A DNA stretch of 54,587 bases from an uncultured bacterium (GTDB lineage: Bacteria; Cyanobacteriota; Vampirovibrionia; Gastranaerophilales; Gastranaerophilaceae). The notes under the pieces were generated by a model that saw nothing but the letters and a program-made list of their open reading frames with translations, was not told where the DNA came from and ran no database searches. Positions 216-23,783 of the stretch are shown one piece after another (the stretch's first letter is position 1; each line of letters opens with the position of its first letter). The stretch lies in contig URFH01000016.1 in NCBI GenBank assembly GCA_900547155.1, positions 1 through 54,587 on the forward strand. The letters run 5' to 3'. Position numbers and translations under genes: made by a program.

Positions 216-1697
216 TTAGTTCTCACTTTCGTACATGTTTAGCATTGGAATGATATAGGCGCTTGTAATTGTCAAAATCAACACATCCGGCTTTAATTCC
301 AGAATCAAAGGTTGATAATCCGCCATTTTAAGGTCATTTATGGCTTGTCGCCGCCCGTTATTAGCTCTGAAATATTTTAAGTGCCTAAAGCTAAAAGGAA
401 GAAAATCATTGAAGTTTTCTGACATACTATTTCCAATTTCCACGGCGGTAAGGTTGTTTTTGGAGGGAAAATAAAAATCTTTTGTCATGTTTTCATAGTC
501 AATTTTTGTTTCCAGCAAATGATTTTGCTTGTATTCATAGTACAGGTATTCTACATCCAATATCTTTTTAGCAAATCTTGAGCCCTGAAGGTTTAAAAAT
601 GCACTTAAAGTCGTGCCGTTATGAAAATCACGCATAAAATCAGAACGAACCTGCTTTTCTTTGAAAATTTTAAAGTCATCTTCTTTCAACGGAACAAAAT
701 CGGGGAAATCCTTTTGAATCGCAGCAGAAAGCAACTTATATCCAATAAATGCGCCTGTATCAGTCCAATGATGATCCGTTTTAAAAAACAGGTAATCTTT
801 TTCTGCCCGATTTTTGAACTGTTGCGATGGAAAGATTAAATTAACATCCGTTTTAGATTTTATATAATCATATATTTGATGAAAATTTTCCTGTCCGTAT
901 GCAGGAAAATAGGGATCATGCTTTTTATAAATATCTTCTTTGGATGGAACAACAACAATATACAACTTGATATTATTTTTTGTACAAAATTGATTGAGCT
1001 TTACAAAATTATCAGATATTCTTTTCACAGTTTGCTCTTCCAATTTCTTGTAAATAGCACGTGAATAAGGCTCAATGCGAAACCCCCAGTGATTTTCTTT
1101 ATTAAAAACAGCATGACCGGGCACCACATAAAATTTATAAGCCAAATAATAGCGAAACTTACAGTACGTGCTCACAATTGCATCACGCAAAAAGAAATGG
1201 TCAGAAAAGTAGTTCGTGTAATTATTACCCCAGTTGAAATTGATTGCTCCGTCTTTAATAAAAGGCTGATATTGAGCAAATGGCCGCAGTTCTTTCACTG
1301 AATACACTTCTTTATCCAATTTCAACATCGGAATAAATAAAACGACGAAAATCAGGACCAAAAATAAAATATCGTTTCTGGATTGATTTTTCAGTGTTTT
1401 AAAATCAGCAAGATAATCGGAAAGCTTGTAAAACAGAAGAAAGGAGAGCACTAAAATAATTACAAAAACTTTAAAATCAAATTGCACAGCAGAACGGGCT
1501 TTTAATGGCTTGTTATAATAAATTGAAAACTCTTTTTCATGCGGCGTAACAACCAGCGAATCGCCCTGAATTTTCAAATCAGCATTTTCCGCAGAAAAAT
1601 TCTCTAAATCATTAAGCCTGTATTTGCCGCCTCTGAGCTTTATCCCTGAAATATAAAGGCTTCCAGCCCCCCCCCCCCATGGGGTTAAAATCCGCAC
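216..1697 (-). CDS. AlgX/AlgJ-like SGNH O-acetyltransferase, C-terminal part (out of frame with its own N-terminus)
   Basis: This frame carries the catalytic part of an AlgX/AlgJ-type acetyltransferase. Seen: two more membrane segments (VFVIILVLSFLLFYKL and ILFLVLIFVVLFIPML), then the periplasmic SGNH-like domain with VVVPSKEDIY, the FFKTDHHWTDTGAF signature (catalytic Asp-His) and EIGNSMSENF (nucleophile block with Ser). Family knowledge: such proteins take acetyl groups from an MBOAT partner, which here is the gene directly downstream. The reading frame has no natural start: its first codons lie in and before a run of 12 G at 1667-1678. The true N-terminus is in the other frame (1612-1968). 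With 11 or 14 G the two join into one protein of about 583 or 584 residues. As sequenced, the full protein is not made. Confidence 0.85.
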   Translation of the reverse strand: MRILTPWGGGAGSLYISGIKLRGGKYRLNDLENFSAENADLKIQGDSLVVTPHEKEFSIYYNKPLKARSAVQFDFKVFVIILVLSFLLFYKLSDYLADFKTLKNQSRNDILFLVLIFVVLFIPMLKLDKEVYSVKELRPFAQYQPFIKDGAINFNWGNNYTNYFSDHFFLRDAIVSTYCKFRYYLAYKFYVVPGHAVFNKENHWGFRIEPYSRAIYKKLEEQTVKRISDNFVKLNQFCTKNNIKLYIVVVPSKEDIYKKHDPYFPAYGQENFHQIYDYIKSKTDVNLIFPSQQFKNRAEKDYLFFKTDHHWTDTGAFIGYKLLSAAIQKDFPDFVPLKEDDFKIFKEKQVRSDFMRDFHNGTTLSAFLNLQGSRFAKKILDVEYLYYEYKQNHLLETKIDYENMTKDFYFPSKNNLTAVEIGNSMSENFNDFLPFSFRHLKYFRANNGRRQAINDLKMADYQPLILELKPDVLILTITSAYIIPMLNMYESEN

Positions 1698-1968
1698 GTA
1701 GAGAGAGTTTTAGCCGCTTAGGAGATGTAACATGATTCATTATTACTTCAAATTCTTGAGATTCAGATAAGTTAATTGTATTTTCAGCCTTTTTTACATG
1801 CTTAAACCTGGTATTATCCTCTTTATTCAGCAAAACTAGGATATTAACAATACCCTGCCCTTTTATATCAAAGCCAACTTGAAAAGGCCTAAATACAAGC
1901 CAATATCTATTTAAAGCAACAGCACAAAGTATTGTTAACACAAGTGCAATTATTGTTCTTCTACGCAT
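1612..1968 (-). CDS. N-terminal part of the AlgX-like acetyltransferase (upstream frame of a phase-variable gene)
   Basis: Upstream frame of the gene broken at the G run. I choose the ATG at 1968, preceded by GAGAG, over a TTG 15 bases upstream. Seen: a membrane anchor TIIALVLTILCAVAL, then a short extracytoplasmic beta-rich stretch ending in ADFNPM followed by a Gly run encoded by the homopolymer. After the run the frame continues for about 15 residues (WKPLYFRDKAQ...) that look like a shadow of the downstream frame and then stops at 1612. The first-frame product alone would be a short membrane-anchored peptide with no catalytic domain. Confidence 0.8.
   Translation of the reverse strand: MRRRTIIALVLTILCAVALNRYWLVFRPFQVGFDIKGQGIVNILVLLNKEDNTRFKHVKKAENTINLSESQEFEVIMNHVTSPKRLKLSLRADFNPMGGGGWKPLYFRDKAQRRQIQA
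1667..1678. repeat. 12-base C/G homopolymer in the AlgX-like gene, candidate phase-variation switch
   Basis: Twelve consecutive C on the plus strand (G in the coding strand). The coding sequence enters the run as AT-G and leaves it as G-CT-GGA. The frame is open only if the run is 11 or 14 bases; at 12 the protein is frameshifted. Such long G/C runs are very unusual in DNA this AT-rich and are known contingency sites in other bacteria. A sequencing or assembly length error is the alternative. Confidence 0.8.
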
Positions 1969-2036
1969 CGTTCCATCTCTCAATATATAATTTACAATTA
2001 TACAAAAGCCAACATTAATTGCAAATGTGTAAATTA

Positions 2037-4359: not shown

Positions 4360-4361
4360 GG

Positions 4362-5864: not shown

Positions 5865-8681
5865 ATGAACATAAGCCGTCAATACACTACCCATCTTGAT
5901 AACAATGGATACATTAGGAAAAAAGAGGATGTATCCGGGATGTTGTCTTCACAAAAGCTTTCTAAAAATCATGTAACGCCTTTAAAGAGAGAATCCATCA
6001 ACTTTAAAGGCGTTTTCAATATTTTATACTCAAAAACAAAGCCCTTTAACTACCAAAAAGCGATAAAAGACCTTTCAGAAAGTATTGGCGGAGCACCATC
6101 AAGGCTCGCTCATAACATTGAATCTTATGAACAAATGAGCCGCTCTTATACAAAAAAAGGCGAAAACATTGTAATTAACGAAAAAAGGCCTCTGCTTTTG
6201 ATTTGTGACAGCCTACAGGAGCCTTTCAAAAGAATTCCTTTAACAATTTACGATAAAGCGATTAAATTCCTGCAAAAACACAAGATTCTTTCTCCGGAGC
6301 ACAAAGGGTTGTTCCAAAAACAGCGTCAATTGCTCAATAATGACGAACTTTTGAATTCTTTGGACGGATATTTGCAATCCGCTGACAAATACAGATATGA
6401 CACGGCAAAAGACCGCAATTCATTGCTTTTTGACAATGCAATGAAAATGTTTAATTCAAAAACCGGAAATTACAATGCCGTGCATGAACGAGCACTGACC
6501 AGAATAGTTACCGGAATGATTCCTGCGGTTTTTCTTGCCAATGACGCATACAATCTTTCAAGATTAATGGATGATGACCCGAAATTAGCTGAAAAAGAAA
6601 AGAAAACCCGTTTTAACCAGGAAGTAAAACGTATTTTTTCAAATGCTTACCTGCAGTTGATTACTTTTGGTGCGCTCGCCAAGCATATCAACGCAAGCAA
6701 GGGCATATACGTTATTACAACCATCGCAACCGTTCTGTTCACAGAAGCATACTCAAGACTTTCAAACGGCAAAAAGCTTCACCTTATTTCAAAAGAAGAA
6801 GCAATCGAAATCAACAGAAAAGAACGTGAAAAATACCTCAAAAAACATCCTGAAGCGGCTCAGGCAGAAAAAGCTAATGAAAAACCCGCACAGGAACCGG
6901 TTCAAGCAGCAGAACATCCAAATCAGGCGCAAAACCCTGCGTTCAAAGGCGCAGGCGCGTTTAAAGCTTTTGATAATGTTGCGAACCTTTCTTTCAATGA
7001 AAGGGTTAAAACGCCCCAAAAGAGCTTGCCGCAGCCAATCAGCCCCGACGACAAAACAGAAAACAAACAATCAAAAGATTCAGAGCCTTTAATTTCATTG
7101 AAAGGCATTGCAAAATGGGCAGTTTCAGTGATTGCAGCCGGCTATGCAATTAAATACAGCCGCAATATTAAAATTAATAAGGCAACTGTCGGTGAATACC
7201 TTGATGTGCTCTCAAAAATGAGGAAAAACTTATACAAAAAACTGACCGAAGAAAAACATCTGATTGCAAAAACCGAATTTGATGAAATAGTTGCAAAACT
7301 TGAAAAATATGACCCTCTCTTTGCCAAACGATTCAAAGAAATTACAATAGAGCATCAGCAGGCAGGAGCGGTCGGCAAAATTGCTGAAAAATTTGCTCAA
7401 AAGCTTAAAGACGCGGGTCTTAATGAGCTTGCAGCTGACTTTAATGCGCTTGCAAATAAAAAATTGAAGCCTGACTTCAAAAATATTGAAACAATTAAAG
7501 CCGCAGAAAAGCATTTCAATGGCATAATGGAAAAAGAAACCGTCAAAAAGCTTGAAGAATTTTTCAGCGTAATGAAAAAGGAAAACCTTAAGTCTGAGGC
7601 TGATGAAATAAGGAAAATTCTCACAAATCAAGACACTAAGCTTCTTGAAACAAAAAATTACACAGACGCGGTTAAAAAACTAAAAGAAATGGCAAAAGCT
7701 GCCAAAAACTCCAATGAAAAAGAAAATGCTGAAAAACTTGAGGTTCTGCAGCATACGTTCAACAACAAATTTAAAATCAACCAGAACGAAGCCGTAATAC
7801 AAATGTTCGAAAACGCGCTTTCACAGCTCAAAAAGAAAGATTCAGCAGCAGCTAAAGAGTTTGAAAACCTTCTTGAAAAAGCTAAAAATGCTGAAAACTA
7901 TGATTTGGGCTCAAAAAATAGAAAATATTACAAAGAGTTCACAGATTTCTTTACGCAGCCGTTTATATTTATTAAGGATTTAGTAATATTCCCTTATACT
8001 TTCTCGCAAAATGTCCCCAAATGGGTTAAAAGTGGCGTAAAAAAACCGGCATGGTCAGATGGAATTAAATCTGTTTCTAACGGCGTTAAAAAGCTCAAGT
8101 CAAAAATGAAACTTGACGATGAACAGTTCAAAAAATACATGGATTTAAGCATAAACAAGGCATTTAACACGACCACAATGTCAAGTGTGTCAAATGCAGA
8201 CCTTTCACTGCTTTCCAGATATGCGTCGCTTGCCGGCACAGCATGGTTCCTTGTTGCTGACAATTACAACATGGTTATGCTCAAATCAAACGGTGAGGAC
8301 AAATCTCTCGCCTCGTTAAAAGCAAAAGAAAGAATAGTTCAGGAAACATCCAGAACTTTCTGGAATAACCTATTCATACAGCTGTTTAACGGCACATTCA
8401 GTAGCGTTTATAACGGAAGCCTGCTCGGAGCGCAGCTGGTTAACGCAGCTTCAACAACGGTCGGCGAATATGCAAACAGAAAAGCAATAGGCATGCCTGT
8501 TGCTGCACAGAGCAGAGATGAAATTCTGCAAAATGAGCACAAAAATCTATCTGACCCCGGATTAAAAGGTAAATTCTTCAGATTTATGACCCGATTAACC
8601 GGCAAAAAGGCTATTACGCAACGTGTTAGCGACAAACCGGCCAAATCGGAGCAAACAGAAGAAGTCAAAAAGCAAAAATAA
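5865..8681 (+). CDS. Large helical membrane protein with FKG motifs, function unknown
   Basis: A 938-residue protein that I do not recognise. Seen: NFKG near residue 46 and NPAFKGAG near 357, the first ahead of the helical body and the second in a Pro/Gln/Ala-rich linker (about 330-400). Hydrophobic stretches lie near 215-235, 262-298, 415-433, 780-800 and 848-878. Between 440 and 700 it is Lys/Glu-rich and predicted to be coiled coil. No signal peptide and no catalytic motif are visible. The short FKG motif recurs in other proteins here (giant protein at 45144, small protein at 51515). Ribosome site AAGAG is weak. It ends at a strong terminator. I infer a lineage-specific structural or envelope protein, with low certainty. 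Confidence 0.7.
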   Translation: MNISRQYTTHLDNNGYIRKKEDVSGMLSSQKLSKNHVTPLKRESINFKGVFNILYSKTKPFNYQKAIKDLSESIGGAPSRLAHNIESYEQMSRSYTKKGENIVINEKRPLLLICDSLQEPFKRIPLTIYDKAIKFLQKHKILSPEHKGLFQKQRQLLNNDELLNSLDGYLQSADKYRYDTAKDRNSLLFDNAMKMFNSKTGNYNAVHERALTRIVTGMIPAVFLANDAYNLSRLMDDDPKLAEKEKKTRFNQEVKRIFSNAYLQLITFGALAKHINASKGIYVITTIATVLFTEAYSRLSNGKKLHLISKEEAIEINRKEREKYLKKHPEAAQAEKANEKPAQEPVQAAEHPNQAQNPAFKGAGAFKAFDNVANLSFNERVKTPQKSLPQPISPDDKTENKQSKDSEPLISLKGIAKWAVSVIAAGYAIKYSRNIKINKATVGEYLDVLSKMRKNLYKKLTEEKHLIAKTEFDEIVAKLEKYDPLFAKRFKEITIEHQQAGAVGKIAEKFAQKLKDAGLNELAADFNALANKKLKPDFKNIETIKAAEKHFNGIMEKETVKKLEEFFSVMKKENLKSEADEIRKILTNQDTKLLETKNYTDAVKKLKEMAKAAKNSNEKENAEKLEVLQHTFNNKFKINQNEAVIQMFENALSQLKKKDSAAAKEFENLLEKAKNAENYDLGSKNRKYYKEFTDFFTQPFIFIKDLVIFPYTFSQNVPKWVKSGVKKPAWSDGIKSVSNGVKKLKSKMKLDDEQFKKYMDLSINKAFNTTTMSSVSNADLSLLSRYASLAGTAWFLVADNYNMVMLKSNGEDKSLASLKAKERIVQETSRTFWNNLFIQLFNGTFSSVYNGSLLGAQLVNAASTTVGEYANRKAIGMPVAAQSRDEILQNEHKNLSDPGLKGKFFRFMTRLTGKKAITQRVSDKPAKSEQTEEVKKQK

Positions 8682-9571: not shown

Positions 9572-11221
9572 ATGACCGGATTTTTAGAAAAACACAAGAA
9601 TTTATTCACTATAATCGGCTTATTTGCCGTGTTTTACCTGATTTTCTTCCACAATATCGGCTCCTACCCGCTTATGGATATTGACGAAACCCGATACGTG
9701 CTGATGTCCAGAGATATGCTCAAAAGCGGCAATTTTATGACGCTTTATCTGAACGGGGAATATTTTTTTGAAAAACCGCCTTTGTATTTCTGGATTGAAT
9801 GCCTGTCATTCAAGCTTTTTGGCGCTGTTAACGAGTTCAGCGCAAGATTTCCTGCTGCATTGTGCGGCATGGCGACTTCTTTCCTTGTTTATTTCTGCGG
9901 AAGAAAAATTGTTTCCGAAAAATACGGCATTGTGTCCTCACTGGTGCTTGCAACCTGCCTTGAATATACAATTCTGGCAAAATACGCTATTTTAGACATT
10001 TTTCTGTGTACACTTGCCGCTTTTTCGGTGTTTTCTTACTTCTTGACGCTCTTTGTGCAGGAAAAGAATAAAAAATACTTCTGGTGGCTTTTTTACATAT
10101 TTTCGGCGCTTGCTGTTATGGCAAAGGGCGTTCCGGGCGCAGCAATCCCGTTTGGAACAGCGTTTTTTGTTTCAATTTACACCCGAACCTTTAAAGAAAT
10201 CTTCAAACCGCTTTATATTTTGCCCGGAATAGCGCTTTTTCTGCTGATTACGCTGCCATGGCACATAATTATGCTAAAAACGCACCCGACTTTTTATCAC
10301 GAGTATATTGTAAAACATCATTTGCAGCGTTTTTTGAATTCCGAAGAACTGGGCCGAAAACAGCCATGGTATTATTTTTTAATCACTGTAACATGGGGAA
10401 TAGTGCCGTGGACGCTTTCTGTTTTTACAGCTGCGGGTGCAAAGCTGAAAAAACTCAAATCGCCGAACCTGAAGCCCACCTTTGAAAACGCAAAACTCTT
10501 TCTGGCAGTGAACATCATCGCAGCCCTGTTTACGCTGTTCTTTTTTTCATCCTCGAGCACAAAGCTAATAACTTATATTCTGCCGGTATACCCTTTTATG
10601 GCCTGTATTATCGGTTATATCTGGACAAAATACCTTTCAGAAGGCTGTTTTTCAAAAGAAATTGAGGTTTCTTCGTATATTTTCAGCGGATTTTGTATTT
10701 TATGCGGCGTCAGCGCAATATTTATGCAATTTTTTCTGCCGCAGGCAATTTATGCGGACATAAAATCCATACAATGGTTCTGCGTTGCGACAATTTTGCT
10801 TACACAGGTTCCGGCAGTGATTTTTCTTATAAAAAAGAATCGAAAAGCGCTTTTCGGGGCTTATATATTGTTTATCCTGATTCTTTCGGCATGGGGAACG
10901 CCGCAGTTTTACAGATTAGATTACGCATTCGGGCAGAATGATTTAATGGAGTATGCAAAACTGGCAAAAGAAAGCAATGCAACGATTTACGCAATCAACA
11001 CGGGGCGCCGCTTTTCTCTTAATTACTACGGTTATGGCGCAAAAGTGGTTTATCTGAAAGATGTTGATTACAGCGGGCTTTCAGAACTCGAATTTGCGCC
11101 GGAAGCACTGATACTAGTAAAAAATAAAGAGATAAAAAACAATGAAAAAGCTTTTGCCAATTTTACAGAAATAAAAAAGGGCCGAAAATACACACTCTTA
11201 AAAGAAAAAGAGCCTAATTAA
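9572..11221 (+). CDS. ArnT-like glycosyltransferase family 39 (GT-C) membrane protein
   Basis: A 549-residue polytopic GT-C enzyme. Seen: MDIDETRYVLMSRDML with the catalytic-type Asp-Glu in the first periplasmic loop, EYFFEKPPLYFW, at least ten hydrophobic helices, SSSTKLITYILPVYP, and a short soluble C-terminus. Family knowledge: ArnT and related PMT-family proteins move a sugar from undecaprenyl phosphate onto lipid A or a protein on the periplasmic face. Its end overlaps by 8 bases the end of the converging GT2 gene. With that gene and the deacetylase at 12220 it makes a set like FlmK/FlmF2/NaxD. The acceptor is unknown: lipid A and other glycans are both possible. Ribosome site GGGAG. Confidence 0.85.
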   Translation: MTGFLEKHKNLFTIIGLFAVFYLIFFHNIGSYPLMDIDETRYVLMSRDMLKSGNFMTLYLNGEYFFEKPPLYFWIECLSFKLFGAVNEFSARFPAALCGMATSFLVYFCGRKIVSEKYGIVSSLVLATCLEYTILAKYAILDIFLCTLAAFSVFSYFLTLFVQEKNKKYFWWLFYIFSALAVMAKGVPGAAIPFGTAFFVSIYTRTFKEIFKPLYILPGIALFLLITLPWHIIMLKTHPTFYHEYIVKHHLQRFLNSEELGRKQPWYYFLITVTWGIVPWTLSVFTAAGAKLKKLKSPNLKPTFENAKLFLAVNIIAALFTLFFFSSSSTKLITYILPVYPFMACIIGYIWTKYLSEGCFSKEIEVSSYIFSGFCILCGVSAIFMQFFLPQAIYADIKSIQWFCVATILLTQVPAVIFLIKKNRKALFGAYILFILILSAWGTPQFYRLDYAFGQNDLMEYAKLAKESNATIYAINTGRRFSLNYYGYGAKVVYLKDVDYSGLSELEFAPEALILVKNKEIKNNEKAFANFTEIKKGRKYTLLKEKEPN

Positions 11222-12173: not shown

Positions 12174-12219
12174 ATATAAATCCTTTGTGATATTATTTCC
12201 ACATAGGAATTTTATATTA

Positions 12220-13053: not shown

Positions 13054-13111
13054 GAATTTTTCTTTTCATACTTCATATTTATATACATTGATACTAAAAA
13101 AAATTTGTTTG

Positions 13112-14310: not shown

Positions 14311-15476
14311 CAAATTTCTTTGATAAAATCTTTTCTTATAAAAAAGATGATATTAACACGGTTTGGCGGGTTTTAGGCTTTAAAATTTCATACAAAAACA
14401 AAGAAAACACTTTAAAAGCCATAACACAACAGAATAATTATGACCTCACGGAGTTAAAAACGGCAAAAGAACTGATTATATTTTTTGTGCCTAAAATTGA
14501 AATGATAACTGGAGGAATTCTATCTATATATTCAATTTGTAAGTATTCTAGAGAAATTTGCCCTAATGCTATGTGTTTGATTTCGACACCGCCAGGAAAC
14601 AGAACATATAGTCACAATAACTATTTCAATAACGAAGAAAAGATATACAGATGGTCACAAATAACAGATAATGCTTCAGCTGAAAAGATTACTGTTCATT
14701 TGCCGGAGTTTTTGGCTGATAAGTTCTACAACTCATTGTCCCTGAAAGAAAAGAAGTTTTTAAAATCCACCAAGGATTTGCAAATCAATATATTAAATCA
14801 AAATATTGATTTGATGCCGGAACCGTCAAAAATACAAAATCTCAAAAAATTAACAGCTAATATTACGCAAACTATAGGCCACGACAAATGTGCAACACAA
14901 GAAATATGTAACAAATGGGGCATACCAACTCATTTTTTATCAGTAGGTATCGAAACTTCAATATATAAAATTTTGCCCTTTGAATCTAAAGAAAAAATTA
15001 TAGTATTTTCTCCGGATTGTTGTCCGGAAAAGTCAAAAATACAGAAAAAAATAGAAAAAGAACTGCCTGACTATAAAATCGTCACTGTAAAGAACATGAG
15101 ATTTCAGGATTATATGGATTTGATTGCACGTTCTTATTTTTCTGTAACCTTTGGGGAAGGGTTTGACGGGTATTTTATTATACCTGCGCTGGTGGGAAGC
15201 ATTGGTTTTGCGGTTTACAACGACAAATTTTTCCCGGACAAAAGCTGGAAAGAGCTGCCTTTGACATATGATTCCTTTGACGAAATGTATAAAAAAATTA
15301 CAAATGATATGATTTCACTACTGCAGAATAAAGAAGAATACATAAAATTAGCAAATACCTTAAAAGAAAAGCATGACAGCATATACAACATTGATTGTTT
15401 TAAAAATAATTTAAAACTGTTTTACCAGGGAAAATACAGCTTTCTTCCCACTATAGAGGGAGGGATTTCACAATGA
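14307..15476 (+). CDS. GT-B-type glycosyltransferase-like protein with a short shared N-terminal module
   Basis: A 389-residue protein. The first 35 residues (MTNFFDKIFSYKKDD...LGFKISYKNK) match, in pattern, the starts of two unrelated proteins downstream (18381, 19280). The body looks like a GT-B glycosyltransferase: ITGGILSIYSICKYSRE in the N-terminal lobe, QTIGHDKCATQEICNKWGIP, and FGEGFDGYFIIPALVGSIGF in the donor-binding position. Start at the ATG at 14307, inside the preceding stop (ATGA overlap), giving coupled translation; a TTG three codons upstream is less likely. It overlaps the next gene by 4 bases. Sugar and linkage are unknown. Confidence 0.65.
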   Translation: MTNFFDKIFSYKKDDINTVWRVLGFKISYKNKENTLKAITQQNNYDLTELKTAKELIIFFVPKIEMITGGILSIYSICKYSREICPNAMCLISTPPGNRTYSHNNYFNNEEKIYRWSQITDNASAEKITVHLPEFLADKFYNSLSLKEKKFLKSTKDLQINILNQNIDLMPEPSKIQNLKKLTANITQTIGHDKCATQEICNKWGIPTHFLSVGIETSIYKILPFESKEKIIVFSPDCCPEKSKIQKKIEKELPDYKIVTVKNMRFQDYMDLIARSYFSVTFGEGFDGYFIIPALVGSIGFAVYNDKFFPDKSWKELPLTYDSFDEMYKKITNDMISLLQNKEEYIKLANTLKEKHDSIYNIDCFKNNLKLFYQGKYSFLPTIEGGISQ

Positions 15477-16189
15477 AGCTTGGAATTATGCAGCCTTATT
15501 TTTTCCCATATCTAGGCTATTTTAGCTTAATAAAACATACAGATAAATTCATACTTTTTGATCCTGTTCAGTTTATAAGACATGGCTGGATAGAAAGAAA
15601 TCGTGTACTAAAACCGGAAAATGACTGGCAATATATCAATGTTCCACTGGAAAAACACTCATTGGACACGAAAATAAAAGATATTAAGATAAATAATGAA
15701 AATGACTGGAAATCAAAAATTTTGAGCCAGTTGCAGCATTACAAGAAAAAATCACCTTTCTACAAGCAAACTGTTGCTGTGGTAGAAGATGGTTTAGATA
15801 TTATTACAGATAGCATTGTTGAATTAAATGCACACACAATGGAGTCTGTATGCAGATATCTTGGTATCAACTTCGACTATGAAATATTTTCACAGATGAA
15901 TCTAAAAATAGATGAGGTTAACGCTCCTGATGAATGGGCATTGAATATCTGTAAAGCCTATCCGGATGCCGATGAATACTGGAACCCCCAGGGTGGTTTG
16001 GAATTTTTCGACAGAAACAAATATGAACAAGCAGGAATTAAGCTATTTTTCCAAAAAGTCAACATAAAACCCTATCCTCAAAGAAGAGGTCCTGAAAATA
16101 TCATAACTGGCCTATCTATCATTGATGTAATGATGTTCAATTCACCAGAAAAAATATCGGAGATGCTCGATGACTTTGAATTGCTCTAA
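15473..16189 (+). CDS. WbqC family protein
   Basis: A 238-residue WbqC-family protein. Seen: the family start LGIMQPYFFPYLGYFSLIK, then FDPVQFIRHGWIERNRVL, and the conserved C-terminal YWNPQGGLEFFD plus MMFNSPEKI. Length is typical. Family knowledge: WbqC proteins occur in O-antigen and other glycan clusters; the biochemical role is not settled, and an acylation or aminosugar step has been suggested by context. Ribosome site GAGGGAGG is strong. It overlaps both neighbours (4 bases before, 20 after), which ties it to the flanking aminotransferase-like gene. Confidence 0.85.
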   Translation: MKLGIMQPYFFPYLGYFSLIKHTDKFILFDPVQFIRHGWIERNRVLKPENDWQYINVPLEKHSLDTKIKDIKINNENDWKSKILSQLQHYKKKSPFYKQTVAVVEDGLDIITDSIVELNAHTMESVCRYLGINFDYEIFSQMNLKIDEVNAPDEWALNICKAYPDADEYWNPQGGLEFFDRNKYEQAGIKLFFQKVNIKPYPQRRGPENIITGLSIIDVMMFNSPEKISEMLDDFELL

Positions 16190-17111
16190 AGAACTGGGCG
16201 GATATCCCGGCCTAGAGCTGGGTGAATGTGCTTTTAACATAAAATCTAACAGCATATCCTTAAACACGGCAAGAAATAGTTTAAGATATGTTATCAGGGC
16301 ATACAATATTAAAGAAATTTTTGTACCGTATTACACCTGTCCTGTCGTTTGGCAGGCAATAAAAAAAGAAAATTGCAAAATTAATTTTTATCACGTTAAC
16401 AAAGACTTTTTACCCCGGGAGGAGTTCGCAGAAGACGCTTTTGTCCTCTATACAAACTATTTTGGAATTTGCGCCAAAAACGTAAAACTACTTGCTAAAA
16501 AATACAGAAACCTGATTATTGATAACGCTCAGGCATTTTATATGCCAAAATACGGAATTGCTTCATTCAATTCCATTCGGAAGTTTTTTGGAGTTCCTGA
16601 CGGATCATTGCTCTATTGCGACAAAAAATTGGAGGACGAATTTGAAACTGATATTTCTTATCCAAGATTCACACATCTGTTAAAAAGATTGGATATTGAC
16701 GCAAGTTCAGGATATCAGGACTTTTGCAAAGATGAAGAACTCCTGAATAATGAGCCGGTTAAATATATGTCAAATTTAACATATAAAATCTTCAATCAGA
16801 TTGATACACAACGAGCAAAAGCCATCCGGCTTGAAAATTTTAGGATTTTGCATGAATCGTTAAAAAATAGCAACGAATTGAAATTTGAATTAGACACTGA
16901 CGATGTACCTATGGCATATCCATATCTTGTAGAGGAGAATGGTCTCAAGCAAAAACTTATAAGTAAAAAAATCTACTGTGCTACATATTGGAATCCGCTT
17001 CCTGACGAATATACCGAGGGATATTTTCAAAAATACCTCGTGCCGCTCCCTCTGGACCAACGATACTGTGCAAACGATATGCACAGAGTATTGGAGGTAG
17101 TTTATGAGTAA
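16170..17111 (+). CDS. Divergent DegT-like PLP-fold protein
   Basis: A 313-residue protein with DegT-family order but low similarity. Seen: NTARNSLRYVIRAY (phosphate-binding region), PYYTCPVVWQAIKK, LIIDNAQAFYMP (in the place of the PLP-contacting Asp) and NSIRKFFGVPDGSLLY, whose Lys is in the place of the Schiff-base lysine. It is shorter than the first aminotransferase. Function could be aminotransferase, dehydratase or a non-catalytic relative; the sequence does not decide. The start at 16170 lies inside the WbqC gene with CGGAG upstream. It overlaps the next start by 8 bases. Confidence 0.65.
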   Translation: MTLNCSKELGGYPGLELGECAFNIKSNSISLNTARNSLRYVIRAYNIKEIFVPYYTCPVVWQAIKKENCKINFYHVNKDFLPREEFAEDAFVLYTNYFGICAKNVKLLAKKYRNLIIDNAQAFYMPKYGIASFNSIRKFFGVPDGSLLYCDKKLEDEFETDISYPRFTHLLKRLDIDASSGYQDFCKDEELLNNEPVKYMSNLTYKIFNQIDTQRAKAIRLENFRILHESLKNSNELKFELDTDDVPMAYPYLVEENGLKQKLISKKIYCATYWNPLPDEYTEGYFQKYLVPLPLDQRYCANDMHRVLEVVYE

Positions 17112-18378
17112 AATCAGAGTATTAATATTCCCGGCCGGTGAAATCAATTCTGTTGAGCTGCATGACGCACTTTCTACATGTGTCAATATTGAGCTTTTCG
17201 GTGCTTCTTCTGTGGAACGACACGGAAGTTATATTTTCAAAAACTACATTGCAAATGTTCCTTTAATTAGCGAGCCTGATTTCTTTGAGAAGTTCAATAA
17301 AATCCTTGACGAAAACAAAATAGACGTAATTTTTCCTACGCATGACACAGTTGCAGAATTTTTTGCCCAAAATCCCGAAAAACTCAATTCTGTTGTTGTT
17401 TGTTCAGACAAAAAGACCGCAGAAGTATGCAGGGATAAAAAGGCAACCTTTGAAATTTTCAAAAACGAAGATTTCTGCCCAAAAATATACTCAACAATAG
17501 AAGATTTACCTGTATTTATCAAGCCCAGAAAAGGTCAGGGTTCTGTGGGAGCAAAGCTGATTAAAGCGAAAACCGACCTCCCTGCAAACCTGAACACCGA
17601 AGAGTACATAATTTCTGAATACTTACCAGGTGATGAATATACAGTTGATTGTATTACAGATAAAAATGGCATCCTGAAAGCAGTTCTGCCGCGTTCCAGA
17701 AAAAGGCTTCTGGCCGGGGTCTGCGTTGCAGGACAAAATGAAGCGCTTACACCGGAAATTCAGAAAATTGCTGATAAAATCAACGATAAACTCAAATTTC
17801 GCGGATTATGGTTCTTCCAGATTAAAAAAGACAACAATGGAAAATTCAAGCTTCTCGAAATCTCCGTACGATGCGCAGGTACAATGTGTCTATCTCGAGC
17901 TATGGGAGTAAATTTAGCGCTATTGAGTATTTACACTGCAATAGGTCAGGAAATAGAAGTTTTTAAAAATCCTTACAATCTCAAAATGGATAGAACTTTG
18001 ATATCCAGGTATAAAATGGACTATGAATACTCAAAAGTTTATTTTGACTTCGATGATACATTAATTATCAACAATAAGGTACATTTACCGGCAATTTCAT
18101 TTTTATATCAATGCAAAAACGAGGATAAAAAAATAGTTTTGCTCACAAAACACGAATACGACCTGCAAAAAACGTTATCCCGTTTTTCGATATGCAAAGA
18201 GTTATTCGATGAAATTATTGTCCTAAAGCCTAATGAAGAAAAATCACCTCACATCAAGCCTGAAAAGGCAATTTTTGTTGACAACTCATATAAAGAACGA
18301 AAAAAAGTTCATGAAATTTTTAAAATTCCGGTTTTTGATGTTGACGGAATTGAGGTATTGGCGGATTGGAAGAGGTAA
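17104..18378 (+). CDS. ATP-grasp ligase fused to a HAD-like domain
   Basis: A 424-residue two-domain protein. Residues 1-300: ATP-grasp of the carbamoyl-phosphate-synthase-like group, with FPAGEINSVELHDAL, PTHDTVAEFF, FIKPRKGQGSVGAKLI (ATP-binding loop), EYLPGDEYTVDCI and LEISVRCAGT (metal ligands). From about 312: a HAD-like domain with KVYFDFDDTLI (catalytic Asp pair), LLTKHEYD and IFVDNSYKERKKV. Family knowledge: ATP-grasp enzymes ligate a carboxylate to an amine or thiol; HAD domains often remove phosphate. In this locus I infer attachment of an acid or amino acid to an aminosugar. Ribosome site GGAGG. Confidence 0.85.
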   Translation: MSKIRVLIFPAGEINSVELHDALSTCVNIELFGASSVERHGSYIFKNYIANVPLISEPDFFEKFNKILDENKIDVIFPTHDTVAEFFAQNPEKLNSVVVCSDKKTAEVCRDKKATFEIFKNEDFCPKIYSTIEDLPVFIKPRKGQGSVGAKLIKAKTDLPANLNTEEYIISEYLPGDEYTVDCITDKNGILKAVLPRSRKRLLAGVCVAGQNEALTPEIQKIADKINDKLKFRGLWFFQIKKDNNGKFKLLEISVRCAGTMCLSRAMGVNLALLSIYTAIGQEIEVFKNPYNLKMDRTLISRYKMDYEYSKVYFDFDDTLIINNKVHLPAISFLYQCKNEDKKIVLLTKHEYDLQKTLSRFSICKELFDEIIVLKPNEEKSPHIKPEKAIFVDNSYKERKKVHEIFKIPVFDVDGIEVLADWKR

Positions 18379-18380
18379 TA

Positions 18381-19277
18381 ATGGAAGTTAAACAGTTTTT
18401 AAGGAACATGCTTTCGGTGCATGAAGATAAAAATCATTTGGTGTTCTGCTTTTGTGGCATAAAACTCAAATTCAGAATAAAGAAGAATGAATTCATCGTC
18501 CATACATTGAGCAGAAAAGTTGATGAAAGTAAAAACATTATTTTCACTGTTAAAAGTGATATTATAAATGAAATCAAAGCGCTGAATGCGGCCCGGGAGC
18601 TCCACAAAGAAACTTTCAAAAAATATAAGAACTGTAATGCAGGAAAAGAGGTTGTGCTCGTCGCAACGGGACCTACGTTGAATGATTACATTCCCATTGA
18701 AAATGCTGTTCATGTGGGTGTAAACAGAGCTTATATGTTCGACAAAATTACGTTTGATATTTTGTTTATGCAAGATTATCTTGCCGTAAAAAACTACATA
18801 GAAGACTCTTATAACTATAAAAACAAAGAATTAAAGAGATTTTACGGCTTGTTGCAGCCCGAGTTGGTTGAAAACTGGGTTATTCCTGAATCTTATGCAA
18901 TAAAACATAAGGCAGAAAGATATTATGCACGCTCTTCCTGGGCACCCAATGCAAGCAATCCTGTTATTAATTTTACCTATGATATATCGTCAGAGCCATT
19001 AATTTGCCACGGTTCGGTGGTATTCCCTGCAATGCAGTTTATTTTATATACAAATCCATCAAAAATCTACCTTGTGGGCTGCGACTGTTCAACCCAAGGA
19101 TATTTCAACGGCCCGCCACTCTTTCCGCTTGATCCCGAGTGGATGCACAGATGGTGGAATGAGCTAAAAAACTTTGCACAGATGTATTATCCAGAAACAG
19201 AGATTATATCGGTAAACCCAGTAGGGTTAAAAGGGTTGTTTACAGATACTTATCAAGATACAACGAGGGAAGAATAA
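18381..19277 (+). CDS. DUF115/GT42-like protein with the shared N-terminal module
   Basis: A 298-residue protein. The first 37 residues (FLRNMLSV...CGIKLKFRIKK) repeat the module seen at 14307 and 19280. From about 90: VVLVATGPTLNDYIP (Gly-rich nucleotide loop), VGVNRAYMF, and later HGSVVFPAMQFILYTN and IYLVGCDCSTQGYF. This order matches the DUF115/MptE-like fold, which is also seen in CMP-sialic-acid-type GT42 transferases and flagellin-glycosylation proteins. It could be a glycosyltransferase using a CMP-sugar, which would fit the cytidylyltransferase-like gene at 20107 (inference). Start at the ATG at 18381 with AGAGGT. Confidence 0.6.
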   Translation: MEVKQFLRNMLSVHEDKNHLVFCFCGIKLKFRIKKNEFIVHTLSRKVDESKNIIFTVKSDIINEIKALNAARELHKETFKKYKNCNAGKEVVLVATGPTLNDYIPIENAVHVGVNRAYMFDKITFDILFMQDYLAVKNYIEDSYNYKNKELKRFYGLLQPELVENWVIPESYAIKHKAERYYARSSWAPNASNPVINFTYDISSEPLICHGSVVFPAMQFILYTNPSKIYLVGCDCSTQGYFNGPPLFPLDPEWMHRWWNELKNFAQMYYPETEIISVNPVGLKGLFTDTYQDTTREE

Positions 19278-19279
19278 TC

Positions 19280-20107
19280 ATGACAAAAAAATTTTTTCAA
19301 ACAATTTTTTCAATAAAAAATGAAAAAAATCATAAAGTACTGACATTTATGGGATTAAAAGTTAAATTGAAAAAAAGAATCAATTTAGACAACCTTGACG
19401 AAATATTAAATAGTTTATCTGAAAAAATATCAAGCGATATAGCATATAAAGATTGGTGGGACAGAACATCAATCTATAATTCACTAGAAAAAGAAGCACA
19501 TCAAGAAACACTTCAATTTATCAAAACTCATATTGATTTAAATAAAGTAATTTTACTCAAAGACAGATGGCAGAATTTATTATATTGCATTGATAAGGCG
19601 AAAAAAATACCAGGTTTATATATTGAATGCGGAGTTCATAGCGGAAGAAGCATAAATCACGCAGCGAGGCACAATAGAAATATAACATTCCATGGATTCG
19701 ATTCATTTGAAGGATTACCTGAGGAATGGTCAGGCAATTCAATGCAAACAGGCGCTTTTGACTTAGGAGGATGCTTACCGGAAGTCGAAAAAAATGTTCG
19801 ACTATATAAAGGCTGGTTCAATGAATCATTAACGAAATTTTTCAAGGAGCAAGATGAAAAAATCGCATTTTTACATGTCGATTGCGATATTTATCAGTCA
19901 ACAGTAGATATATTCAATATAGTTGAACAATACTTACAAAAGGGTACAATTATTGTTTTTGATGAGTATTTTAATTACCCGAACTGGCAAAATCACGAAT
20001 TCAAAGCATTTAATGAATTTATAACCAGGACAAATTTCAAGTTTGAATACATATCAATAGGACATTTGCAGGTAGGTATAAGAATACTTGAAGTTGGGAG
20101 TAAATAA
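19280..20107 (+). CDS. TylF-like class I SAM methyltransferase with the shared N-terminal module
   Basis: A 275-residue protein. First 35 residues (FFQTIFSIKNEKNHKV...GLKVKLKK) belong to the shared module. The enzyme part carries YIECGVHSGRSINHAAR (SAM loop), FHGFDSFEGLPEEWSG, GAFDLGG, FLHVDCDIYQSTVDI (metal-binding Asp region) and FDEYFNYPNW. These match TylF/MycF-type O-methyltransferases, which methylate sugar hydroxyls. It overlaps the next gene by one base (TAATG). The DNA is visibly more AT-rich than the housekeeping genes, as expected for a laterally acquired glycan locus. Confidence 0.8.
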   Translation: MTKKFFQTIFSIKNEKNHKVLTFMGLKVKLKKRINLDNLDEILNSLSEKISSDIAYKDWWDRTSIYNSLEKEAHQETLQFIKTHIDLNKVILLKDRWQNLLYCIDKAKKIPGLYIECGVHSGRSINHAARHNRNITFHGFDSFEGLPEEWSGNSMQTGAFDLGGCLPEVEKNVRLYKGWFNESLTKFFKEQDEKIAFLHVDCDIYQSTVDIFNIVEQYLQKGTIIVFDEYFNYPNWQNHEFKAFNEFITRTNFKFEYISIGHLQVGIRILEVGSK

Positions 20108-21426
20108 TGAAAGTATATGCATTTGTACCTGCCAAAGGCAGCAGTGAACGGGTCGAAAACAAAAATATGAGATATCTAGACGGAGAAAGGCTTTATGCCA
20201 AAGCTCTGAAAACCTTGTTGAACTGCAAAGAAATCGACCAGGTTTTTCTTGACACCGAATCCGAGGAAATGTACAAGGCTGTGGATTATCTGCCCATCAC
20301 ATTTATGAAAAGAGATGCTTCTCTCGCTAATAATAAAACAGACGGGCACAAAATGTTCATGAATGAGGTCAATTCTTATCCTGATGCAGATATTTACGTA
20401 CAAATGTTATGCACCTCGCCTTTTATTCATCCAGACACAATTGACTCTGCAATTTTAATGCTAAAGGACCCCAATAGCACATATGACTCTGCAATTTTGA
20501 TGAAAAAAGACAAATTTTATTTTTGGAAAGATGGCAAACCCACTTATGATATAAATCACATCCCGAACAGTAAAGACCTGCCTGAAACAATAATTGAGTC
20601 AATGGGGTTATATATAGTAAAAAAAGAGACCGCCCTAAAATTCAACAGACGTTTTGGGGATAATCCTTACTTATTCTACGGCGAGCTTGAAGAGCTTATT
20701 GATGTAAATACACCTGAAGATTTGGAATTTGCAAGAAACTATGCAAGAGGTTTGAGGCAGGCCGAAAACGAAAAATTACGTCTTATCAAGCATTTCATAT
20801 CTTCTCCGGCCCTTTCTGACCTTTTGGACGATATGAGAATCGAAAAAAATGAAGAATGCGGCGTTGTCATAAACGAGTGGAAAACAAATATGCCCGGCAC
20901 AAAGCTCCTCGGCAGAGCGAACACTCTGAAACTCAGGGCGTTGAAAAAAGATGAAGATTTCAAAGGAATTTACAAAGCTATTGAGTCATATGAGGGCATT
21001 ACACAAAACGACATAATAATTGTAGAAAATGAAGTCAAAGAATATGCCTACTTTGGTGATTTAAATGCGAGATTAGCAATTAAAAACGGCGCCTCCGGTG
21101 CGGTAATAGACGGCGCAACCAGAGATGTTAGGCAAACTCAGCTTCTAAATTTTCCAGTGTTTGCCAGAAGCTACAACGCTGCCGATGTAAGAAGAAGAGC
21201 AACAGTTGATTATATCAACAAACCTGTAAAAATCGACGGAAAAACAATTAATCCCGGAGATTTGATATTTATTGATGAATGCGCAATGGTCGTTATTTAT
21301 AAAAAATACGAACAAGAAGTCATAAAACGTGTACTGGACGTTTTTTACAATGAAAAAGCTATTGTTAATGACATCGTCAATAACAAACATATCGATGAAA
21401 TTCTTGAAAACAGAGGAACATTTTAA
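20107..21426 (+). CDS. CMP-sugar synthetase-like domain fused to an RraA-like aldolase/decarboxylase domain
   Basis: A 439-residue fusion. Residues 1-225: acylneuraminate cytidylyltransferase-like, with VPAKGSSERVENKNMRYLDG, LDTESEEMY, MLCTSPFIHPDTID and ELIDVNTPEDLEFA. Residues 240-430: RraA/HMG-aldolase-like, with GRANTLKLRAL, YAYFGDLNARLAIKNGASG, AVIDGATRDVRQ (metal-binding Asp-Gly...Arg-Asp) and NPGDLIFIDECAMVVI. Family knowledge: the first activates ulosonic acids with CTP; the second family cleaves or decarboxylates 2-oxo acids with pyruvate. I see no NeuB-type synthase in the window. The two joined domains suggest one pathway for a 2-oxo-acid sugar. Ribosome site GGGAG. Confidence 0.85.
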   Translation: MKVYAFVPAKGSSERVENKNMRYLDGERLYAKALKTLLNCKEIDQVFLDTESEEMYKAVDYLPITFMKRDASLANNKTDGHKMFMNEVNSYPDADIYVQMLCTSPFIHPDTIDSAILMLKDPNSTYDSAILMKKDKFYFWKDGKPTYDINHIPNSKDLPETIIESMGLYIVKKETALKFNRRFGDNPYLFYGELEELIDVNTPEDLEFARNYARGLRQAENEKLRLIKHFISSPALSDLLDDMRIEKNEECGVVINEWKTNMPGTKLLGRANTLKLRALKKDEDFKGIYKAIESYEGITQNDIIIVENEVKEYAYFGDLNARLAIKNGASGAVIDGATRDVRQTQLLNFPVFARSYNAADVRRRATVDYINKPVKIDGKTINPGDLIFIDECAMVVIYKKYEQEVIKRVLDVFYNEKAIVNDIVNNKHIDEILENRGTF

Positions 21427-21427
21427 C

Positions 21428-22396
21428 ATGCCAATTTGCACAGTACTACTTATTACGTATAATCATGCCGAATACATAAGAAAAGCAATAGATTCAGTTT
21501 TAGAACAAAAAACGCAATATGATTTTGTTATACATATATTTGATGACGCATCAAATGACGGTACATCAGATATAATAAGAGAATATGCCCAAAACTATCC
21601 GGATAAAATAAGACCCTTTATATCAGAAACAAATAAAGGTGCACAAAACAACATCTGGAACGCTTATAAATCGGTAAAAACCAAGTATTGTGCGTTACTT
21701 GAGGGCGATGATTACTGGGGTGACGAAAACAAGCTGGAGTTGCAAATTGCAGCTCTGGAGCAGCATCCTGAATGTGCAAGTTGTGCCGGGAATACTATAA
21801 TGTTTAATAAAGGGGACAAATATGACAAAGCCAAAAACGGTTCATTACTAGTTTCAAAAGATTTAATAGATAAAAGCCCAATCTTTACCAGAGAAAGACT
21901 TAAAGGCAAATTCTGCGGTTACATTAATCACATTTCGACAAGAATAATAAACATGGAAAAGGTCAATCTTGATGAAATTAGAGATTTAGAAAGTTTTTGC
22001 TATGATAATGCACAATTCTTTTATCTGCTAAGTAAAGGACCGATAATTATGATTGACAAAATTTTTAGTGTAAGAATAATGACGGGGAGCGGTATTTTTT
22101 CCAGTCTTAACACTAACAAAAAGCTAAGAATACATTTAAATGCACTAATTGAAGTAAATCGGCAAATAGATTATCAATTAGAAGAAATCATATATGAACA
22201 TCTACAAAGTTACTTGTCATACTTTACAGGGGCACAAAAACAAATAGGTGCTCAAAGAATACAAATTATTGAGAATATAAGACAACTTAACAATATAAAA
22301 AAACTGAAACATTATATTCTATCAGATTTTTTGATAGATATATTAGATTTACCACGAGATATTTTTAGAATAATGAAAAATAGAAAGGAACATTAA
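21428..22396 (+). CDS. Glycosyltransferase family 2
   Basis: A 322-residue GT-A enzyme. Seen: CTVLLITYNHAEYIRKAIDS at the start, IFDDASNDGTSDI, NKGAQNNIWNAYK, LLEGDDYWGDENKL (metal-binding DDYW), and a helical C-terminus of about 120 residues. No membrane helix, so it acts in the cytoplasm, adding a sugar from a nucleotide donor. Start at the ATG at 21428, with GAGGAA 10 bases upstream and the previous stop 1 base before. It directly abuts the radical SAM gene. Confidence 0.88.
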   Translation: MPICTVLLITYNHAEYIRKAIDSVLEQKTQYDFVIHIFDDASNDGTSDIIREYAQNYPDKIRPFISETNKGAQNNIWNAYKSVKTKYCALLEGDDYWGDENKLELQIAALEQHPECASCAGNTIMFNKGDKYDKAKNGSLLVSKDLIDKSPIFTRERLKGKFCGYINHISTRIINMEKVNLDEIRDLESFCYDNAQFFYLLSKGPIIMIDKIFSVRIMTGSGIFSSLNTNKKLRIHLNALIEVNRQIDYQLEEIIYEHLQSYLSYFTGAQKQIGAQRIQIIENIRQLNNIKKLKHYILSDFLIDILDLPRDIFRIMKNRKEH

Positions 22397-23554
22397 ATGA
22401 AATACTGCACATTGGCATACGAAAATCTTTACTTTGATACTTACAATGGAGAAGTTTATCTTTGCCCTTGGATGGACCCCAAAATATCCTGCATAGGAAA
22501 TATCTTGGAAGATGATCTTGGAACTCTTTGGAACAGTGATATAGCACAAAAGCTCAGAGATAGCCATACCGATAACTCTTTCTGCTATTGTCGGCCTCAA
22601 GCCTGCCCTCATATTCAAAACAATGATTTTACTGAAATTACAGATGAAAATCAATATAAAGAATTGACAAAAACCAGAGAATATCCAACAATTTTGAACC
22701 TGGCTTATGATTTTGTTTGTAACCAGTCATGTGAAACTTGTCGTCCAGAGGTATTTATCCCGCCTAAAGATTACGCAAAAAAAATAGAAAAACTTCAAAA
22801 AAGAATTGCCCCTTATTTGGATAAAGCAAAAAAGATAAGCGCTTCAGGTCACGGAGATCCTTTTGCTTCACCATACATGATGAAGTTGTTGGAAAATCTA
22901 CATCCGGAGGACCCTGAACTATGCTTGCAGCTGGAAACAAACGGAGTATTTTTCGATGAAGAACATTGGAAAAGAATTGAACATTTAAAAGATTTTAAAA
23001 TTGATACTTTAGTTACTGTTAACAGTTATAACAAGTTTACTTATGAACACATATCAAGAGGCGGCAATTTTGAAAAATTAATGAAAAATTTAGAATTTAT
23101 ATCAGAATTAAGAAAGAAAAATCATATTAATAACTTAATGTTTGCGCTTGTAACACAAGATAGAAACTTTAGAGAAATACCTTCTTTCATAGAAACAACT
23201 TTTAATAATTACTGTGTTGATAAAATTCTGCTGCGCCCAGTTTACCAATGGGGAACCATGCCTGAAAAAGCTTTCTGGTTCAAAGATGTATTAAATCCCA
23301 AGCACCCTTACCACGCAGAATACTTAGAAATTCTCCAACATCCAGCACTAAAGGATAAAAGAGTGTACAACTTTGGAGGAGAAATGGATCATCCAGCACG
23401 CGATTTTTACATTGAAGAAACATGTCAGTGCTGTTGTCAAGAAGAAAAACCCAAAGTAAGCCCAGCAAAAAATTTCGTTGCTCATGCAATTTCATCACTA
23501 ATTCCATGTAGCGAAATCCGAAGAAATGTGAGAAATAAATTATTAAAAGGCTAA
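22397..23554 (+). CDS. Radical SAM protein with an N-terminal SPASM-like Cys region
   Basis: A 385-residue protein. Residues 1-65 resemble a SPASM auxiliary-cluster segment (VYLCPWMDPKISCIGNI, GTLWNS, CYCRPQACPH), placed before rather than after the radical core. The core has CNQSCETC near 109-116 as the SAM-cluster motif (CX3CX2C), SASGHGDPFAS and LQLETNGVFF. A further CQCCC cluster sits near the end, and the last 25 residues (LIPCSEIRRNVRNKLLKG) form a basic amphipathic tail. Substrate unknown; in this setting a sugar, lipid-linked sugar or peptide is possible. It starts at the base after the GT2 stop. Confidence 0.75.
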   Translation: MKYCTLAYENLYFDTYNGEVYLCPWMDPKISCIGNILEDDLGTLWNSDIAQKLRDSHTDNSFCYCRPQACPHIQNNDFTEITDENQYKELTKTREYPTILNLAYDFVCNQSCETCRPEVFIPPKDYAKKIEKLQKRIAPYLDKAKKISASGHGDPFASPYMMKLLENLHPEDPELCLQLETNGVFFDEEHWKRIEHLKDFKIDTLVTVNSYNKFTYEHISRGGNFEKLMKNLEFISELRKKNHINNLMFALVTQDRNFREIPSFIETTFNNYCVDKILLRPVYQWGTMPEKAFWFKDVLNPKHPYHAEYLEILQHPALKDKRVYNFGGEMDHPARDFYIEETCQCCCQEEKPKVSPAKNFVAHAISSLIPCSEIRRNVRNKLLKG

Positions 23555-23555
23555 A

Positions 23556-23783
23556 ATGAGAAAATTGTTCATAAAATTACACAATCTCATAGTCAGAATT
23601 CTAACATCTTTTATTTTTATAAAAGATGTTAGAAAACGGCTTAGAACCCTGTTATTACACCCCCCCCCCCCAAACCCGCACAACACAAGCCATTCAGGGA
23701 TATACCAATGTATGGGGAATACCTATCAAAATAGGAAAAAATTCATATCTTGGCGAAAATTCAAAAATTTGGCATTACAATAG
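23556..23783 (+). CDS. N-terminal part of the hexapeptide acetyltransferase (upstream frame of a phase-variable gene)
   Basis: Upstream frame of the gene broken at the C run. It starts with ATG one base after the radical SAM gene stop, so it is translated with the operon. Seen: a basic, amphipathic start (MRKLFIKLHNLIVRILTSF...KDVRKRLRTLLL) like the tail of the preceding protein, then a Pro run encoded by the homopolymer, then out-of-frame sequence to a stop at 23783. With 11 or 14 C it would continue into the acetyltransferase frame. Confidence 0.75.
   Translation: MRKLFIKLHNLIVRILTSFIFIKDVRKRLRTLLLHPPPPNPHNTSHSGIYQCMGNTYQNRKKFISWRKFKNLALQ

Follow-up and report, generated by a model that had tools for sequence, protein, structure and literature searches.

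In Neisseria, the acyltransferase-3 protein encoded by pglI is phase-variable by means of a G tract. A phase-variable acetyltransferase, oafA, is described for Haemophilus influenzae in the available part of a review of the acyltransferase-3 (AT3) family (PMC9558356). We analysed two split genes, here called A and B, in a contig of an uncultured member of the Gastranaerophilaceae (Candidatus Gastranaerophilales, gut Melainabacteria; URFH01000016.1; "the window" denotes this whole stretch of 54,587 bases, 39.7% G+C). Each gene is interrupted by a 12-base C run, and it is highly probable that both tracts are simple-sequence contingency loci and part of a larger repertoire in the lineage. Gene A would have in common with oafA and pglI a single acetyl decoration on a surface glycan that is switched on and off at random. 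Unlike oafA and pglI, which are acyltransferase-3 enzymes, A is predicted to be of SGNH type and to work with an MBOAT protein encoded separately. With the PatA/PatB and AlgI/AlgJ/AlgX systems (PatB1, 5v8d; Pseudomonas AlgJ, 4o8v; AlgX, 4knc) it shares the SGNH domain, the serine, the (D/E)xH motif and the adjacent MBOAT gene. In contrast to PatB1, AlgJ and AlgX, gene A carries an additional N-terminal beta domain that bears the tract, and its glycan target is presumed.

The poly-G phasome of Campylobacter amounts to 5-81 phase-variable genes per strain in the available part of that work (PhasomeIt, PMC6321876), and resembles the present system in that G/C tracts of at least 7 bases lie mostly in open reading frames (ORFs), with surface-modifying genes prominent among them. 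The uncultured gut Melainabacteria differ from it in carrying tracts in the flagellin structural genes themselves and in having kept MutS. For Helicobacter canadensis, the available part of PMC2823697 describes C-terminal sequence switching by tracts at the 3′ end. Acyltransferase-3 genes in three relatives of the window genome (G092, G035 and G110) are alike in having 3′-end tracts that would alter the C-terminus only, whereas the A and B tracts of the window precede the catalytic domain.

Three G/C runs of at least 7 bases were found in the window: C12 at 1667-1678, C12 at 23660-23671 and G8 at 54549-54556. No A/T run of at least 9 bases and no short tandem repeat of at least 5 units was listed within it. 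The number of runs of at least 12 bases expected in the window was 3.3e-4 with independent bases and about 2e-4 with a 4th-order Markov model, so that chance is excluded as the source of the two C12 runs. Gene A (minus strand) and gene B (plus strand) are each split by one of them, and the downstream frame is offset by one from the upstream frame in both genes, which confirms an observation made in an earlier note on this DNA; the G8 run, at the window end, lies inside no confidently called gene. At 12 bases and within a coding frame, both tracts exceed the cut-off of at least 7 for G/C homopolymers given in the available part of the Campylobacter work (PMC6321876). The earlier note had also pointed to the matching length and offset of the two runs. 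As a signal this was rejected, because A homologs carry 7 to 13 bases at the junction, in either polarity and with offsets of 0, 1 or 2. The match carries no information and appears to be a coincidence.

The upstream part of gene A (1679-1968) begins with the ATG at 1968 and encodes a first predicted transmembrane helix and the first half of the beta domain; it had no Pfam match. Beyond the tract (1667-1678, C12 on the plus strand and G12 in gene sense), the downstream part (216-1666, stop codon at 216-218) continues in the other frame with the end of the beta domain, two predicted transmembrane helices and a catalytic SGNH domain of PatB/AlgJ/AlgX type, as placed by Pfam and structure. The Pfam matches of this part were ALGX (PF16822, E 3.6e-13) and DHHW (PF14286, 1.3e-5). 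In a profile search, the closest solved structure was Bacillus cereus PatB1 (2.3e-25), followed by AlgJ and AlgX. Foldseek with an AlphaFold2 model of P0001, a protein of 584 residues that represents the same gene in frame (predicted local distance difference test score, pLDDT, 89.4), also placed PatB1 at the top (1.3e-13), ahead of a DHHW protein, AlgJ and AlgX. Among 57 aligned near-full-length homologs (from 156 hits, 120 of them listed), His401 and Ser515 in P0001 numbering were invariant, and residue 399 was Asp in 48 and Glu in 9. The ALGX/SGNH domain with its catalytic Ser and DxH motif places A in the PatB/AlgJ/AlgX family, and judged by sequence and predicted fold the gene is a PatB1/AlgJ/AlgX-like SGNH O-acetyltransferase.

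An MBOAT gene (PF03062, E 2e-34 to 2e-36) adjoined A on the same strand in all six genomes tested, as the single match per genome. In the window, its first 71 codons are present (1-213, minus strand); it starts at 213, two bases past the stop of A, and is cut by the window end, and this reading matches the MBOAT start after A in G065, G092 and G035. The SGNH match, the conserved residues and the adjacent MBOAT indicate that the two genes form a PatA/PatB- or AlgI/AlgJ-like pair, in which the MBOAT protein would be the acetyl-group exporter or partner of A. Helices 3-18, 166-192 and 198-216 of the P0001 model are compatible with three transmembrane segments, as judged from the model. The product of A is probably periplasmic, as had been proposed earlier, and probably works with this MBOAT partner, which the earlier note had missed. 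In P0001 the tract encodes residues 98-101, and residues 99-102 have pLDDT below 50. They form a loop between two strands of the extra N-terminal beta domain in the AlphaFold2 model. This loop is predicted to be disordered, and changes in tract length should be tolerated there.

In the proposed mechanism, slipped-strand mispairing during replication would alter the G/C count and with it decide whether the coding part beyond the tract is read in frame from the start codon. In frame, A would be a membrane-anchored periplasmic SGNH acetyltransferase; the adjacent MBOAT would pass acetyl groups across the membrane, and A would place them on a cell-envelope glycan. Out of frame, translation would stop shortly past the tract, which should abolish acetylation. 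We infer the slippage mechanism, the switching within a population, the acetylation reaction and its target.

Near-identical copies of gene A occur in both states. The in-frame protein P0001 is 99.6% identical to the window gene, which is out of frame (OFF), over the downstream 486 residues and 97.2% identical over the upstream 106. The same relation between an OFF gene and an in-frame (ON) protein was found for G065 and P0006 (downstream part 99.8% identical), G035 and P0007 (95.7%), G092 and P0010 (96.1%), G110 and P0014 (99.2%), G184 and P0033 (99.4%), and G077 and P0034 (98.6%; G077 has a second frame break). A reverse pair was formed by G037, which is ON, and P0065, a short off-type ORF with 98.9% identity. 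These eight pairs (seven OFF/ON and one ON/OFF) are what is expected of a contingency locus.

Relatives of A were found in 115 of the 383 family genomes searched; a homolog was absent from all three genomes of the genus of G001. We read the best 30 homolog loci, one per genome, and both parts of the gene could be placed in 24. A run of at least 7 bases lay at the junction in 11 of the 24 (G7 to G13, or C10-C11, in gene sense), and 6 of these 11 were out of frame. Among the loci that had no junction run, 12 of 13 were in frame, and the single out-of-frame locus (L071) has its frame opened at a G10 of its own further upstream. L060, L066 and L070, all in frame, carry a run (9 or 13 bases) away from the junction but within the N-terminal domain. 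In all, such displaced runs, of 9 to 13 bases, were noted in the A homologs L060, L063, L066, L070, L071 and L156, and in L063 a neighbouring paralog is split at one. The tracts therefore occupy several loops of the N-terminal domain of A, mostly the junction used in the window.

The coding sequence on both sides of the tract is under purifying selection. For the downstream part of genes that read OFF, the non-synonymous and synonymous substitution rates (dN/dS) were 0.088/0.897 for G065-G035, 0.132/0.698 for G065-G092 and 0.138/1.098 for G035-G092; for the upstream part of G065-G035 they were 0.143/1.15. The ratio is thus 0.10-0.19 downstream and 0.12 upstream. Comparisons with the window gene itself, in which silent sites are near saturation (dS of at least 1.5), point in the same direction. 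Ratios as low as these (about 0.1-0.2), both before and after the tract, speak strongly against the decay of A as a pseudogene. Taken together, the tract position, the ON/OFF pairs and the purifying selection on both sides make it very likely that gene A is a slipped-strand phase-variable gene and not a pseudogene, in agreement with the earlier proposal.

Gene B closes a surface-glycan cluster (9572-23554, by Pfam) that contains genes for a PMT-type glycosyltransferase, a GT2 glycosyltransferase, YdjC, a DegT aminotransferase, WbqC, an ATP-grasp protein and an MptE-like protein, together with a TylF methyltransferase, a cytidylyltransferase with RraA, a further GT2, a radical SAM protein and two genes that had no Pfam match. 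Its upstream part (23556-23659, plus strand) starts at the ATG at 23556, with AAAAGG five bases before, and encodes an N-terminal helical module. The tract (23660-23671, C12) is followed by a left-handed beta-helix hexapeptide acyltransferase (23672-24252, PF00132, E 1.8e-14), whose hexapeptide repeats place B in that family. The Pfam and NCBIfam searches thus uphold the claim that both split genes are acyltransferases. The 25 NCBIfam matches of B that were shown (of 45; for example WbbJ, NeuD, CatB and Vat) were all far under the curated cut-offs, so that B was given no substrate, and membership of B in CatB or Vat was rejected (CatB, 104.5 bits with a cut-off of 350; Vat, 108.3 with a cut-off of 300).

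An in-frame arrangement of this kind is seen in relatives of B, for which the alignment held 36 of 120 listed hits among 7997 found. The first 34 residues of P0122 are identical to B and continue in frame through a proline run into the catalytic domain. In its model, two helices (2-17 and 23-33) precede a proline run at 37-40, which lies in the linker before the beta-helix; pLDDT is 81 for residues 31-40 and 61 for residues 41-50. PPP or GGG stands at the module boundary in five relatives (P0122, P0127, P0129, P0131 and P0141). About the last 65 residues of P0122 are also identical to B, and the middle is 40-55% identical in blocks of 20 columns; P0129 and P0141 gave a like pattern, with ends at 70-100% and the middle at 10-65%. 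Near-identical ends around divergent middles suggest exchange or recombination of the substrate-facing part.

The B tract would join the helical module to a cytoplasmic hexapeptide acyltransferase, and a switch would either abolish the enzyme or remove the module. The latter is an alternative to on/off switching of B: the switch would swap a long form with the helical module for a short catalytic form, changing the location of the enzyme and not its activity. An alternative ORF of 208 amino acids (23626-24252) is open from an internal ATG at 23626 in the catalytic frame and has no N-terminal module, the tract sits at the module boundary, and a database ORF of the same type, P0121 (210 amino acids), starts in the same way. 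Against this, a well-spaced ribosome-binding site is missing, by eye, at the internal ATG, and AAAAGG precedes the upstream ATG by five bases. Such a swap is possible, though we would not expect it. Because of this internal ATG, the "off" state of B may be a switch of form rather than a null, and the four surface states that the earlier note counted from two switches are not supported here: the glycan target is presumed, and B may yield a shorter enzyme when "off".

Tracts of this kind are common in the family. Runs of at least 10 bases were present in 217 of 288 family genomes, with a median of 4, a mean of 16.8 and a maximum of 176 per genome. Only 11 such runs in total were found in 20 genomes of other groups reached through the search with a neighbouring U32 peptidase, mostly metagenome-assembled genomes (0-2 each; Mann-Whitney p 4.9e-6, which is indicative since the genomes are related). 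In four relatives that carry A, all 30 runs of at least 9 bases were read (15 in G092 and 5 each in G065, G035 and G110). They lay in flagellin genes (15), in A (4), near the C-terminus of acyltransferase-3 genes (3), and in a hexapeptide acyltransferase, a GT56-like glycosyltransferase and a repeat protein of at least 1,419 amino acids (one each); five were unassigned. Acyltransferases thus held 8 of the 30 and surface-associated genes 25, a count and not an enrichment test, since no whole-genome annotation was at hand for comparison. The earlier note had named runs being common outside surface genes as one observation that would tell against it, and this check, made in these relatives, came out in its favour for the 25, one of them (the repeat protein) assigned by eye, and not for the five unassigned runs. 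The acetylation-specific code that it proposed is too narrow, since flagellins, prepilin-like genes and glycosyltransferases also bear tracts.

Flagellins form the largest tract class in the four relatives, 12 of the 15 tract-bearing flagellin genes lying in one genome. Flagella are known in some members of the Melainabacteria, according to the available parts of PMC9029806 and PMC5877343. In G092, 12 of 23 Flagellin_N matches have a tract; from the length of the open frame, 5 of these genes read ON and 6 OFF, and a contig end truncates the remaining one. At the loci concerned (L105, L106, L108-L112 and L114-L118) the tract stands just past Flagellin_N, in either polarity. Flagellin_N genes with a tract numbered 2 of 10 in G065 and 1 of 10 in G035; no Flagellin_N match was found in G110, G043 or G049. 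Three in-frame flagellins were scanned; two had Flagellin_N, GLUG and Flagellin_C, and the third, cut by the fetched stretch, had Flagellin_N. Two tract-rich genomes, G043 (400 kb sampled) and G049 (220 kb), were covered by a pattern search, which placed 16 of 26 tracts 102-481 bases upstream of a prepilin-like motif. This motif (FTLAEVLI/FTMAEILL) often shares an open frame with the tract, and the flanks are similar, which would fit the copying of a leader that bears the tract (L133, L136-L138, L141 and L144 in G043; L154, L156, L157, L159 and L163 in G049). In the acyltransferase-3 genes L113, L148 and L150, a G tract close to the 3′ end would switch the C-terminus only. The wider repertoire would thus take in flagellins, acyltransferase-3 enzymes, glycosyltransferases and prepilin-like genes.

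Long homopolymers are able to slip during expression, and transcriptional or ribosomal slippage on the G run could give a fixed mixture of full-length and truncated product with no switching of the DNA. Such slippage would account for purifying selection on out-of-frame genes; it does not fit with a frame state that differs between relatives 95.7-99.8% identical, nor with tract lengths that vary among homologs, and we regard it as improbable. An assembly or polymerase chain reaction artefact, in which miscounted tracts would be truly in frame and the genes always on, is no better placed. In its favour, errors are frequent in homopolymers of 12 bases, and for six of the G043 tracts a contig end is no more than about 160 bases away. 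A miscount would not, however, produce 12 identical bases in a row where the genome has 40% GC, or runs of either polarity at the same A junction in 11 of 24 homologs; only one of the 13 A loci that have no junction run is out of frame, and runs of at least 10 bases are nearly absent from the 20 genomes of other groups, which are mostly metagenome-assembled as well. Contig breaks at tracts were not used as proof of length mixtures, as many tracts of G043 and G049 have coding flanks that resemble those at other loci, and contigs also break at repeats. That the genes are permanently frame-broken, decaying pseudogenes is very improbable: the window and its four best matches among the genomes (G065, G035, G092 and G110) all have A out of frame, but selection is purifying on either side of the tract, the catalytic residues are invariant, in-frame copies exist at 95.7-99.8% identity and the MBOAT partner is retained.

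Several observations weigh against the contingency-locus reading. The ON copies of the window's A allele are known as protein and not as DNA, so that their tract length is unread; 13 of 24 A homologs have no junction run of at least 7 bases; and the genomes compared belong to other species, the window gene being 60-63% identical to those of G065, G035 and G092. For B, no in-frame copy of the exact allele was found, and the near-identical P0121 is of the same short type. When 191 genomes were searched with P0122, a tract lay within the B homolog in 1 of 30 fetched loci, and there at the C-terminus; 3 of the 30 had a run of at least 7, one in the gene and two ending an upstream GT2-like gene, as judged by eye. 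The evidence for B is therefore weaker than that for A, and a tract in B homologs is weak as a family-wide trait. Finally, MutS (PF01624) was present in 279 of 288 family genomes, so that no hypermutator background is apparent. To our knowledge, Campylobacter has no functional MutS mismatch repair. Loss of MutS as the cause of the tracts was rejected on the same count, and the nine genomes with no MutS_I match hold 0-18 runs; MutL was not searched.

The polarity of the A tract appears to have changed repeatedly. Junction labels taken from the 57 A proteins were GGG in 17, PPP in 5 and neither in 35; read from protein, they are a proxy for tract polarity, and the label of P0026 is doubtful. On a tree of the downstream part, these labels require 9 changes. 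The PPP-type proteins P0007 and P0012 group with the G-type P0006 and P0010 in a well-supported clade of four, which is nested in a clade of ten, mostly of G-type. A flip is confirmed at the DNA level, the junction holding G13 in G065 and C10 in the closely related G035. Such a change, from poly-G in one species to poly-C in a close relative, is recorded for loci L045 and L046. Since slippage is unable to convert G to C, the A tracts must have been lost and regained, inverted or converted. We tentatively raise the possibility that acetylation of glycans, individual flagellins (in sets of up to 23) and prepilin-like genes are switched independently of one another, as a combinatorial lottery of the surface across the whole genome. 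Its tracts would be re-created as well as lengthened and shortened: the flips of polarity at the A junction, and the position of the run at other loops of the domain in other homologs, are beyond slippage and would suggest that tracts are converted, micro-inverted or repeatedly regrown, with selection acting to keep this gene switchable.

We found no account of phase variation in Gastranaerophilales or Melainabacteria, a match on flagellins being incidental; most subscription journals and preprints lie outside the coverage, and this absence is provisional. Literature matches for Melainabacteria together with homopolymers look incidental. Within the literature searched, phase-variable, MBOAT and acetyltransferase occurred together only in PMC9558356, as far as the available parts of the sources go. 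PMC5084427 makes no mention of acetyltransferase, acetylase or pglI, and the available part of PMC12355684 does not name Melainabacteria. The earlier remark that no phase-variable acetylation system is described in this lineage stands within these searches; the kind of system is known, a phase-variable acetyltransferase being already represented by H. influenzae oafA in the available part of PMC9558356. We provisionally regard as new the lineage, the MBOAT/SGNH pair as a target, the tracts in multiple flagellins and the polarity flips; the mechanism and the type of system are known elsewhere.

Gut Melainabacteria are widespread and almost uncultured. If flagellins, prepilin-like proteins and surface acetylation are indeed switched at random in them, their published genomes each present one frozen state, and surface genes annotated as truncated are misleading. 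Models of host recognition and phage receptors for gut Melainabacteria must then treat the surface state as variable. An MBOAT/SGNH pair under a frame switch would be a natural on/off experiment on a pathway that is usually studied as constant, and with many tracts per genome and MutS kept, the survival of G/C tracts under mismatch repair becomes directly testable.

Two long open frames elsewhere in the window, one on the minus strand at 45144-51176 (2,010 amino acids) and one at 5865-8681 (938 amino acids), had no Pfam match at E 0.001. A phage origin was rejected, as positions 1-24300 had no megablast match in the phage collection. The neighbouring U32 peptidase was 64-70% identical to its best 13 loci, which came from Candidatus Gastranaerophilales metagenome-assembled genomes and gut bacteria.

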